Assembly (NCBI GenBank): GCA_903930515.1
Contig: CAIYYW010000213.1
Span: 1 to 7,685 of the forward strand
Source of the DNA: an uncultured delta proteobacterium
Lineage (GTDB): Bacteria; RBG-13-61-14; DRUE01
Direction: 5' to 3'
Length of the DNA: 7,685 nucleotides
Part shown: one piece after another, positions 3,961 to 7,685 of the stretch
How positions within the stretch are numbered: position 1 is the first letter of the stretch
Layout of the letters: every line of letters begins with the position of its first letter
The notes under the pieces: model-generated
Seen by the model: only the letters and a program-made list of their open reading frames with translations
Databases searched by the model: none
What the model was told of the DNA's origin: nothing
Program-made: the position numbers and the translations under genes

Positions 3961-3975
3961 AAGCGTTTTTCGCTT
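3961..3975. promoter_or_regulatory. Inverted repeat AAGCG-TTTTT-CGCTT at the M23 promoter
   Basis: A perfect 5-bp dyad with a 5-base spacer, whose right arm shares its last two bases with the TTGACA -35 box at 3974-3979. It could be an operator for the peptidase gene. It is too short and lacks the T-run placement expected of a terminator for either flanking gene, since neither gene ends here. Confidence 0.3.
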
Positions 3976-4009
3976 GACAATGGTTGAAAAACTATGTCAT
4001 ACTTATAAT
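3974..4009 (+). promoter_or_regulatory. Promoter of the M23 peptidase gene
   Basis: A consensus TTGACA (3974-3979) is followed 18 bases later by CATACT (3998-4003, 4 of 6), preceded by TGT as an extended -10. A perfect TATAAT lies at 4004-4009 but is 24 bases from TTGACA and 14 from the TTGAAA at 3984, both poor spacings. Either -10 puts the transcription start at about 4010-4016, only 3-9 bases before the ATG at 4019. The region is therefore likely untranslated promoter rather than coding sequence. Confidence 0.6.
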
Positions 4010-4018
4010 AGAGCGAAA

Positions 4019-4930
4019 ATGGGCTTATTTCGGTTAAAGGATTACACGATTCTACTAGTGCCGGATCACACCTCCCAGGTGCATCGGTTCCGGCTGACTT
4101 CTCGCAAAATCAAGGCCTTATTGATCGGCGGGGGCGTGCTTCTGGCGCTTTTGATATTCTTCGGGGTCTTCTATTTTATCACCCTGGGCCAGACCCGGTC
4201 GTTTACTATGCTCCAGGCCGAGAACCAGGACCTAAAAGTACAGTTCAAGGCCCTGACCCAGCAGATCAATAATGTCCAGAACCAGTTGAACCGTGTGAAC
4301 GAACTGGACCACCGGGTCCGGCTCGCGATCGGGATTGAGCAAAACTCCAACTCCGAAATCGGAGTGGGAGGCCCGGAATCCGATTCCCCGGCGATGAGCC
4401 AGCTCCTTCCCGCGGAAGAAGCCAACCGGATCAAAAAGATCGCGGCCAAGCTGAGCCAGGTTGGCCAAAGCCTGGACACCCAGGAGTTGAGCCTGGAAGA
4501 GTTGGACGGATACCTGGAGGATAATGAAGCGCTGATCACGGCCACCCCCAGCATCTGGCCGGCGCGGGGATGGGTCACCAGCGAATTCGGGGTCCGGGCC
4601 AGCCCCTTCCACGGCGAATACGCGCTTCACGAGGGGATAGACATCGCGGCTTCGGTCGGAACCTTGATCCGGGCACCGGCCAGCGGGATTATCATCCACG
4701 CCGGATGGGACCAGGGTTACGGGAACCTGGTGAGCATCGCCCACGGTTACGGATTGACCACCCGGTTCGGGCATTGCGCGGAAATAATGGTCAAGTCCGG
4801 AGAAGCGGTCAAGCGCGGCCAGGTCATTGCCGCGGTAGGCGCCACCGGGAGATCCACCGGCCCCCACCTCCATTACGAAGTCCGGATCCACGGCGTCCCG
4901 GTCAATCCGCGGCGATATATTTTTGAATAA
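4019..4930 (+). CDS. Membrane-anchored M23 family peptidoglycan metallo-endopeptidase
   Basis: Zinc endopeptidase predicted to cut peptide cross-links in murein from the periplasmic face of the inner membrane, in cell elongation, division or remodelling. The 303 residues show a basic cytoplasmic N-terminus (1-32), one transmembrane helix (about 33-56), a coiled-coil stalk rich in Gln, Asn and Leu (about 62-105), a flexible and helical linker to about 180, and a complete LytM domain (about 183-303). Zinc ligands His204 and Asp208 (HEGID) and His285 (HLH) are present, as are catalytic His252 (FGHC) and His283, so the enzyme should be active rather than a degenerate EnvC-like activator. I chose the ATG at 4019; TTG at 3974 and ATG at 3980 would make promoter sequence coding and add residues with no family counterpart. 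The metallophosphoesterase follows after 23 bases, probably on the same transcript. Confidence 0.9.
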   Translation: MGLFRLKDYTILLVPDHTSQVHRFRLTSRKIKALLIGGGVLLALLIFFGVFYFITLGQTRSFTMLQAENQDLKVQFKALTQQINNVQNQLNRVNELDHRVRLAIGIEQNSNSEIGVGGPESDSPAMSQLLPAEEANRIKKIAAKLSQVGQSLDTQELSLEELDGYLEDNEALITATPSIWPARGWVTSEFGVRASPFHGEYALHEGIDIAASVGTLIRAPASGIIIHAGWDQGYGNLVSIAHGYGLTTRFGHCAEIMVKSGEAVKRGQVIAAVGATGRSTGPHLHYEVRIHGVPVNPRRYIFE

Positions 4931-5552: not shown

Positions 5553-6239
5553 TCAGCCGAACATAGAATACCGGAAAATACACCAGAGCGCCTTGAGCGC
5601 GTCCTTCCAGTTGATCTTCTTGCCCTCCGCATAGGTCCGGCCGTTATAGGAAATGGGGATTTCAAATACCCGCAGTTTCCGCCTCGCGATCTTGGCGGTG
5701 ATCTCCGGCTCAAACCCGAACCGGTCTTGCCTGATCTCAATGGACTGGATGATATCGCGGCGGAAAACCTTGTAGCAGGTTTCCATATCGGTCAGGTTGA
5801 GGTTGGTGAAGACATTGGAGACAAAGGTCAGGAACCGGTTGGCCATATAGTGATGGAAATATAACACCCGGTGCTTCCGTCCCAGGAATCTTGATCCGTA
5901 AACCACCTCGGCCCATCCCTGCTCAATCGGCTCCACCAGTTCCGGATACTCTTCCGGAAAATATTCCAGGTCCGCGTCCTGGATCAGGACAATATCCCCC
6001 CGGGCATTCTTGAACCCGGTGCGGAGCGCGGCTCCCTTGCCCCGGTTTTGTTGGTGATAAAAAACCCGGATCCCGGGCCGTCCCTCCAGGCCTTTTAAAA
6101 CCTCACGGGTGCCGTCCGAGCTGGCATCGTCAATGATCACGATTTCCTTGTCAATCGCAACCTTTTCCACCCGCTCCAGGACTTTCCGGATAGTGTCAGC
6201 CTCGTTATAAACCGGTATGATCACGCTTAGCTTTGGCAC
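5553..6239 (-). CDS. Family 2 glycosyltransferase, polyprenyl-phosphate sugar synthase-like
   Basis: GT-A fold, inverting transferase of 228 residues resembling the dolichol/polyprenyl-phosphate mannose synthase branch, which moves a sugar from a nucleotide donor to a lipid phosphate or glycan on the cytoplasmic face of the membrane. Visible motifs are [13 protein letters not shown] (residues 5-17), the nucleotide-binding [10 protein letters not shown] (35-44), [11 protein letters not shown] (65-75), the metal-binding QDADLEY (87-93, Asp88 and Asp90), YGSRF (114-118), [11 protein letters not shown] (150-160) and [12 protein letters not shown] (174-185). It ends without the C-terminal transmembrane pair seen in GtrB-type enzymes, so it should be soluble or peripheral. 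The start is GTG at 6239, supported by AGGA at 6250-6247 seven bases upstream. Donor and acceptor cannot be read from the sequence; roles in O-antigen, exopolysaccharide or protein glycosylation are all open. Confidence 0.9.
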
Positions 6240-6371: not shown

Positions 6372-7685
6372 ATGAAGCAGGAACTGGGACAGATGCTGGT
6401 TGAGGACAAGCTGATCAGCGAGGTACAGTTGAAGGAAGCGATTTATAACCAGGTTATTTTCGGGGGCAAACTGGGGACCAATTTGTTGGAGCTGGGCTAC
6501 CTGGACGAGGAAACCCTGGCGCGATATTTGGCCCGGCAGCATCGGGTAAAGAGCATCAGACTGGAAGACCTGTCCAAGATCCATCCCTCCCTGACCAAGC
6601 TTCTGCCCAAGCGGATGGCGGAAAAATACCAGGCGGTTCCGGTCCGGCTGGAGGGCAAAAAATTATTCGTGGTGATGAGCAACCCGAGCGAGATGGGCGC
6701 TTTGAGCGAAATGAGTTTTGTCACCGGCAAGGTGATTGTGCCATTGGTGCTCCCGGAAGTCAGGGTTTTTGACCTGCTTAATATTTATTACAACATCGGA
6801 CGCGAGCTCAGATACATCAATGTCGCGATGATGGAATCGGAGCGCCGGAAAAAGATGGCCAAGCCGATCGGGAAGATCACTCCCAGGAAGGTGGAAAAGG
6901 CCAGACCCGAGGACGAGTTCAAGAAGAAGATTGTTTCGGAAGGCGGATTGGAACTGATCAGCGAAAAGGAATTTCGAGAACTCCAAACCGATCTGTCCCA
7001 ACCCCAGCCCCAGCCGGGAGCAACCCCTTCGGATCAGGCCCCGGTCCCGCCACCGGAGGTTGAATTCAGGAAGCCGGTTGCGGATACCCAGGCCGAGCCG
7101 GCTCCGGTTGCCAGGCCGGAACAGCCGGTCCGGGCGGTGGCTTACGCGCTTTACCGCGAGTTGGTCAAGGCCGAGGTCCCGGACCAGATCCCCGCGGCGC
7201 GGGTTCAGGATTTCCTCAAAAACTATGTCTCGGCCGAGCTTAAGGATTATATGCTCCCGCTCAAAAACCTGGTCACTTTTCTCAAAGCCGAGGGCGGGCT
7301 TGCGGACGACCGGATCAACCGGCTGGTGGAAAAGATCGTCAATCTGGAAAGCACGCTTAAGGTGATGATGCAGAAGCCCTCCGAGGAAATCTCGCTGGAA
7401 GACGAGGAGCCGGTGGAGTTGGAGGAGATGATTGAGCTGGAGCCGATGCCGGAGGAGCCGCAGGTTCAATATCTGGAGGAGCCGGAGCAGGTGCCGGAGG
7501 AGGCGGCCGAGGAACCCGAGCCGGAGATTCCTCAACTCAGCTTTGCCGACGCCACCCGGGAATTGATGGAAAAAACCAGGGACCGAGACGGATTGGCCCG
7601 GGCCGTGATCGGGTTTGCCAAAAGCGTTTTCAAACGCGCGGTCCTGTTCACCGTCCGCGGCGACCAGGTCTTCGGATGGTATGGA
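6372..7685 (+). CDS. MshEN (GspE N-terminal) domain protein with acidic linker and GAF-like start, 3' end outside window
   Basis: The frame is open for 438 codons to the end of the window with no stop. Residues 1 to about 140 form a GspE/PilB N-terminal (MshEN) domain. It has two tandem 24-residue motifs, residues 4-27 (starting ELGQMLVE, ending Q) and 33-56 (starting KLGTNLLE, ending Q), followed by the usual alpha/beta part (KLFVVMSNPSEM, then VTGKVIVPLVL). MshEN domains in MshE-type ATPases bind cyclic di-GMP. Next come a basic segment (about 155-190), a Pro/Gln/Ala-rich linker (205-255), a helical region (256-335), a Glu/Pro-rich acidic stretch (338-387), and from about 391 a segment (FADATRELMEK, then AVLFTVRGDQVFGW) resembling the GAF-like module in deltaproteobacterial GspE-N proteins. 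No Walker motif appears. It is more likely a regulatory or scaffold protein than the secretion ATPase, but an ATPase beyond the window cannot be excluded. The divergent neighbour is the glycosyltransferase. Confidence 0.8.
   Translation, partial: MKQELGQMLVEDKLISEVQLKEAIYNQVIFGGKLGTNLLELGYLDEETLARYLARQHRVKSIRLEDLSKIHPSLTKLLPKRMAEKYQAVPVRLEGKKLFVVMSNPSEMGALSEMSFVTGKVIVPLVLPEVRVFDLLNIYYNIGRELRYINVAMMESERRKKMAKPIGKITPRKVEKARPEDEFKKKIVSEGGLELISEKEFRELQTDLSQPQPQPGATPSDQAPVPPPEVEFRKPVADTQAEPAPVARPEQPVRAVAYALYRELVKAEVPDQIPAARVQDFLKNYVSAELKDYMLPLKNLVTFLKAEGGLADDRINRLVEKIVNLESTLKVMMQKPSEEISLEDEEPVELEEMIELEPMPEEPQVQYLEEPEQVPEEAAEEPEPEIPQLSFADATRELMEKTRDRDGLARAVIGFAKSVFKRAVLFTVRGDQVFGWYG
7383..7532 (+). 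repeat. Glu/Pro-rich low-complexity segment within the MshEN-domain gene
   Basis: Fifty codons (residues 338-387) encode 21 Glu, 1 Asp and 9 Pro with no Lys or Arg. At the DNA level there are irregular copies of CCGGAGGAG. It is probably a disordered, strongly negative spacer between the helical segment and the GAF-like domain, and a site prone to length variation by slippage. Confidence 0.7.

Follow-up and report, generated by a model that had tools for sequence, protein, structure and literature searches.

What does an MshEN domain do in a protein that carries no motor? The question is raised by the last gene of the window, the stretch of 7,685 nucleotides analysed here, which is the entire contig C213 (G000:C213:1-7685) of a 3.65 Mb draft genome in 401 contigs. 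MshEN has so far been studied mostly within pilus or secretion ATPases. The original prediction for this gene, an MshEN protein that stands alone, lacks an ATPase and carries a GAF domain at its C-terminus, was borne out: the 3' end of the gene, assigned to contig C398 in the same genome, ends with the GAF domain, as do all the complete homologues examined.

The gene and its 3' end

The open frame comprises 438 codons, begins with an ATG preceded by AGGAGAG and reaches the end of the contig without a stop codon; as the window is a whole contig, the gene has been cut by the assembly. The frame is backed by 68% identity to a full-length orthologue from the same genus over residues 1–250. An antisense open frame of 340 codons (6663..7685, −) lies opposite the gene; no homology support for it was seen, and it is likely to be an effect of codon composition.

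A search of the same genome with a profile of the C-terminal domain placed GAF positions 63–159 at the first base of C398, and the window copy breaks off at GAF position 48. The C398 frame runs for 107 codons to a stop. Only a handful of positions set it apart from the C-terminal end of P0001, which is orthologous to the window gene, and the tail was assigned to the window gene on this ground. This near-identity also led us to reject the MshEN gene on C217, likewise truncated at a contig end, as the owner of the tail. Approximately 14 residues (~42 bp) are apparently absent between C213 and C398, which have no overlap of at least 10 bases, and contiguity of the two contigs is inferred from orthology. 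With the C398 frame and the estimated gap the gene would encode approximately 559 residues, ending after the GAF domain. A GspE/PilB ATPase just beyond position 7685, named at the outset as the finding that would overturn the prediction, did not appear: C398 carries the rest of the GAF domain and then a stop.

Domain organization and predicted structure

The features of the window are given in Table 1. The predicted order of an MshEN domain, a linker, helices, an extreme Glu/Pro segment and the start of a GAF-like domain was found throughout the frame. The distance from MshEN to GAF had been put at more than 290 residues and is nearer to 245, as MshEN ends at approximately residue 145 and the GAF domain starts at approximately residue 392 (profile E = 2.6e-12). 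The MshEN family PF05157 was matched at 50.8 bits, against a gathering score of 23.1 (E = 1.7e-13), and the 53-residue tandem motif of NF053729 ('c-di-GMP_motif') at 55.4 bits, against an NCBIfam cut-off of 38. The acidic segment contains Glu or Asp at 22 of its 55 residues and no Lys or Arg. No ATPase, output enzyme or DNA-binding domain was detected in the MshEN-GAF protein.

Table 1. Position of the MshEN-GAF gene, its encoded segments and the adjoining glycosyltransferase gene in the window.
Feature	Position	Strand	Remarks
Divergent GT2 glycosyltransferase, neighbour	5553..6239	−	Arrangement kept in sister genome G001, not beyond
MshEN-linker-GAF protein gene	6372..7685	+	3' end missing; by orthology continues at C398:1-324, estimated gap ~42 bp
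MshEN domain, residues 1–145 (four-helix MshEN_N and MshEN_C)	6372..6806	+	PF05157; NF053729 above cut-off; orthologue model against 5htl, Z 16.8
c-di-GMP motif I, ELGQMLVEDKLISEVQLKEAIYNQ	6381..6452	+	L, G, L and Q kept; R1 to E, G10 to K, L21 to I
c-di-GMP motif II, KLGTNLLELGYLDEETLARYLARQ	6468..6539	+	Extended consensus matched except Y at position 11; terminal Gln kept
Charged helix, then Pro-rich linker, residues 146–252	6807..7127	+	
Helical segment, lineage-specific, residues 253–336	7128..7379	+	Orthologue pLDDT ~80
Acidic Glu/Pro segment, residues 337–391	7380..7544	+	Net charge −22, predicted disordered
GAF domain, first 47 residues	7545..7685	+	Remainder on C398

The 590-aa orthologue was modelled with AlphaFold using 39 sequences. 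The pLDDT was approximately 90 or above for most of residues 1–145 and 421–583 and approximately 80 for the middle helices, with disordered linkers. When the N-terminal part was compared with known structures using VIA-align, it matched MshE with c-di-GMP (5htl; Z 16.8, rmsd 3.4, 138 residues aligned). The C-terminal part matched 3ci6 (Z 15.9, rmsd 3.3, 150 aligned) and 3oov (Z 15.6, rmsd 2.7, 151 aligned), and many GAF structures gave Z values of 14–16 over orthologue residues 421–582. Modelled alone, the GAF domain reached a pLDDT of 94.6. The Pfam family GAF_2 was matched weakly, with E < 0.1 in 14 of 39 members. At the level of predicted models, structure prediction and structure search together confirm the MshEN and GAF assignments.

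One close comparison was 3oov, the GAF domain of a Geobacter methyl-accepting chemotaxis protein, which shares the fold with weak sequence similarity (profile E = 0.0013); unlike that protein, MshEN-GAF lacks a chemotaxis signalling domain. No Cys or His was conserved among 30 aligned GAF sequences, several of which contained neither residue; bilin, haem or redox chemistry is thus disfavoured. With no conserved ligand Cys or His, the domain falls outside the chromophore-, haem- or Cys-dependent GAF types (phytochrome, fRMsr).

The c-di-GMP motifs

The published consensus for c-di-GMP-binding MshEN is RLGxx(L/V/I)(L/V/I)xxG(L/V/I)(L/V/I)xxxxLxxxLxxQ, present twice with a 5-residue spacer (PMC5013675), and position 1 of the consensus has been widened to R/K/L (PMC11731258). 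The window protein retains the motif spacing, the leucine clusters with one conservative Leu to Ile exchange, and both terminal Gln residues. Position 10 of motif I is also a residue other than Gly in 15 of 24 MshEN-ATPases, so that the main deviation is the Glu at position 1, an Arg to Glu replacement shared by the window protein and its close relatives. The Arg at this position stacks on guanine.

The wider family departs from the consensus at the end of motif II, where 9 of 51 distinct family members have Gln, compared to 17 of 24 MshEN-ATPases (p = 1.4e-5, uncorrected for relatedness). In the 42 sequences that lack it at this site (window 6537-6539) the motif I Gln is kept and the replacements vary (L, K, Y, R, H). 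Relatives were recruited by patterns that contain the motif I Gln, so its conservation in 51/51 is not evidence; the motif II Gln lies outside those patterns. In GSPII-B of PilF the single Gln to Glu mutants bind c-di-GMP at 0.46–0.95 μM, and the double mutant alone abolishes binding (PMC11731258). Judged from its motifs, binding of c-di-GMP by the window protein is plausible. Binding across the MshEN-GAF family is uncertain: the motif II Gln is usually lost, and family-wide the ligand may be something other than c-di-GMP.

These departures would fit a degenerate MshEN that serves purely for protein docking, as the N1 domain of PilB docks PilZ in Xanthomonas, so that c-di-GMP would go unsensed and the signal would enter through the GAF domain. 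Both the loss of the terminal motif II Gln from most members and the Arg to Glu exchange that the window protein shares with its close relatives favour this reading, as does the binding of PilZ by the N-terminal domain of X. citri PilB (PMC11656802). However, the window protein retains both Gln residues and both leucine clusters and exceeds the NF053729 cut-off, and PilF single Gln mutants still bind at approximately 0.5–1 μM (PMC11731258). Pure docking is consequently considered unlikely, although it is the strongest of the rival readings.

The genome itself encodes two GGDEF proteins, whose GGDEF and GGEEF motifs are intact, and gave 14 PilZ matches; no EAL protein was found in it. A check for diguanylate cyclases and pil/gsp genes, proposed with the prediction, thus found both in this genome.

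Distribution and genomic neighbourhood

Full-length orthologues of 590 and 598 aa were found in the same genus and the same order, respectively, and the same plan recurred in approximately 45 more distant relatives from Desulfuromonadota, Anaeromyxobacter, Nitrospirota and Myxococcota. When named genomes were scanned, 49 loci were recovered, spread over Desulfuromonadota (Geobacter, Geotalea, Desulfuromonas), Anaeromyxobacter, other Myxococcota and Nitrospirota. Nearly all of these are complete frames of 320–600 aa that end after the GAF domain, with a few cut by a contig end or broken (e.g., L050, L084, L087). The T2SSE ATPase was not among the families matched by the 39 scanned members, and this domain (PF00437) was absent from the full-length proteins P0001–P0004. 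An N-terminal MshEN domain, a long and mostly disordered acidic arm and a C-terminal GAF domain form a plan conserved across several phyla; the helical segment and the length of the arm are special to the lineage of the window protein.

Titles and abstracts on MshEN with GAF or with Geobacter describe no such family, and no paper combining DUF4388 and GAF was found. The general principle of joining MshEN to other signalling domains is already known (PMC5013675). The MshEN-GAF plan itself is real, conserved and, as far as the titles, abstracts and main texts searched can tell, unstudied, with a mechanism that is inferred.

No general conserved operon was found, and the neighbours vary between clades. 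A common upstream and downstream gene occurs in the Desulfuromonadales group only (L053, L060, L072, L083 and similar). The upstream gene, on the same strand and resembling by eye an M23-type envelope peptidase, forms a cluster of 17 loci, 16 of them at position −1; the downstream gene resembles by eye an ACP phosphodiesterase (12 loci). An M23 peptidase gene is also located upstream within the window (3974-4930), with two genes in between. A phage origin was rejected; its one pointer was a weak match, 30% identical to the MshEN part, in the unannotated faecal phage record MT835655.1 (4555-4965), which may be a bacterial contig.

The divergent glycosyltransferase gene beside the MshEN-GAF gene had been put forward as its possible partner. 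This coupling was rejected, as only the sister genome, from the same genus, retains the neighbour, which is missing from the order-level relative and from relatives with listed neighbours. A broader form of the idea is a regulator of polysaccharide synthesis or export that depends on c-di-GMP and works with the nearby glycosyltransferase, WecB and flippase genes. The GT2 gene is divergent from the MshEN-GAF gene in both the window and G001, and WecB and a polysaccharide flippase are encoded on C398 approximately 2.6 kb past the 3' end of the gene. The downstream genes on C398 encode a HicB-like protein, an uncharacterized minus-strand protein, a UDP-GlcNAc 2-epimerase, the flippase and, by inspection, a methyltransferase-like protein. 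A precedent exists in E. coli, where MshEN regulates the glycosyltransferase NfrB (PMC8669469; NCBIfam entry NF008411). NfrB, a c-di-GMP-activated glycosyltransferase, likewise has an MshEN without a secretion ATPase, and its profile matches 39/39 scanned MshEN-GAF members, in the window protein across the MshEN part. However, the MshEN of NfrB is fused to its enzyme in the same chain, whereas that of the window protein is unfused and the glycosyltransferase merely adjoins it, in one genus. Moreover, the GT2 and MshEN-GAF genes share no operon, G002 no longer has the pairing, and the loci with listed neighbours show no recurrent glycosyltransferase directly next to the gene. A role in polysaccharide synthesis or export is therefore regarded as quite improbable.

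Association with type IV pili

The co-occurrence of MshEN-GAF with PilB, counted above the curated TIGR02538 cut-off, was examined in 192 genomes, 13 of which encode MshEN-GAF. PilB was present in 12/13 of these compared to 72/179 of the others (Fisher p = 2.5e-4, uncorrected for phylogeny), and when one genome was taken per family it was present in 9/9 MshEN-GAF genomes (p = 4e-4). When every architecture with the GAF subtype was counted, the values were 22/24 and 62/168 (p = 2.5e-7). The flagellar control FliG showed the opposite trend (1/13 compared to 75/179, p = 0.017); deeper phylogeny is ignored in all of these tests. GGDEF was too common to be informative as a control. No FliG was found in the genome of the window; its contig C107 carries pilB-pilT-pilC-pilS-pilR, and on C391 a GspE-like gene adjoins a GspF-like one.

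Genomic context gave an indirect link in Nitrospirota. At L085 the order is pilB-pilT-pilC-pilS-pilR-[MshEN-GAF] on one strand, with the MshEN-GAF gene last, 5 bp after pilR, and at L081 the gene lies among pilin-like genes. These are the only pil contexts among the 49 named loci, and no pil gene lies beside MshEN-GAF in the lineage of the window, so genomic context alone is weak.

A further connection is provided by the GAF subtype. The same genome encodes a 647-aa DUF4388-REC protein (G000:C366, L124:1480-3423, −) with the same GAF subtype at its C-terminus, and frames of similar length with this subtype were observed in G002 and G151. DUF4388 is presumably the PATAN domain. PATAN-REC proteins of Synechocystis bind the motor PilB1 (PMC9090330). 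Like MshEN-GAF, these cyanobacterial PilB regulators are soluble and free of an ATPase, and the DUF4388-REC protein found here ends in the same GAF subtype; the difference is that in MshEN-GAF the MshEN domain stands in place of DUF4388-REC, and contact with PilB is a proposal.

As the family occurs in genomes that produce type IV pili, it probably adjusts these pili, and the type IVa pilus is the best guess for its target, at about even chances. Of the predicted tie to a surface machine, the tie itself gained indirect support from PilB co-occurrence, the L085 operon and the shared GAF subtype, with the type IV pilus as the most likely machine.

Proposed role

It is about evenly balanced whether MshEN-GAF is a soluble cytoplasmic regulator that integrates signals and acts on the extension apparatus of the type IVa pilus. 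The MshEN domain would respond to c-di-GMP from the two GGDEF cyclases of the cell, and the GAF domain would sense a small ligand or mediate dimerization. Action would be exerted by protein contact with the extension apparatus, where the MshEN domain could imitate that of PilB or compete with it for PilZ-family proteins, stator proteins or other partners. The protein would thereby work in the manner of FimX or the PATAN-REC regulators and not as a motor. MshEN-GAF shares with MshE of V. cholerae and with PilB/PilF the N-terminal fold and the tandem pair of 24-residue motifs, but it differs from them in having the long acidic arm and GAF domain instead of an ATPase, in the Arg to Glu exchange of motif I and in the loss of the motif II Gln from most relatives. 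A more far-reaching version, which we consider a long shot, is that MshEN-GAF proteins form a widespread class of ATPase-free decoys, mimicking PilB in its N-terminal domain and gating the pilus motor by a second signal borne by the GAF domain, with the asymmetric loss of the motif II Gln giving most members a weaker or different nucleotide site in place of the c-di-GMP pocket.

The type II secretion system could take the place of the pilus as the machine concerned. The GspE-like gene with its GspF-like neighbour, the existence of several other ATPase-free MshEN proteins and the conserved envelope-type protein directly upstream in the Desulfuromonadales clade are in line with this; however, no gsp cluster was seen beside the family members examined, and this reading is very improbable. 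That the gene encodes an ordinary PilB/GspE ATPase whose linker is long and whose remainder was lost where the contig ends has practically no chance of being correct: such ATPases usually begin with MshEN, but the 3' half on C398 and the full-length homologues rule it out, ending after the GAF domain and, in the full-length orthologues, giving no match to ATPase models past the MshEN part.

A conserved family built in this way, its receptor freed from the motor and linked instead with a second sensor in several phyla, would reveal a separate route by which c-di-GMP, and another signal, reach the surface machines of Geobacter-like bacteria, Anaeromyxobacter and Nitrospirota. The family can be tested in its cultured members (Geotalea, Anaeromyxobacter).

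MshEN proteins outside ATPases

The expectation that MshEN is usually fused to an ATPase proved a weak premise in this genome, where 6 of 9 MshEN proteins have no detected ATPase, one of them cut by a contig end. The MshEN-GAF family also shows that it is unsafe to count MshEN domains as ATPases or as c-di-GMP binders. M. xanthus has been reported to contain 17 or 22 MshEN proteins (PMC8844925; PMC5013675). As far as the main text of Wang et al. (2016, PMC5013675) shows, MshEN is combined with REC, HD-GYP, CheA, CheX, cyclase and Ser/Thr kinase domains and, as in MshEN-GAF, serves generally as a regulatory module beyond ATPases; GAF is not mentioned in that main text. Besides the window protein, the MshEN proteins without a detected ATPase are encoded on C93, C22, C217, C55 and C136, of which the one on C217 is cut. 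The C93 protein is another MshEN-GAF, of 392 aa, and G001 and G002 have relatives of equal length.
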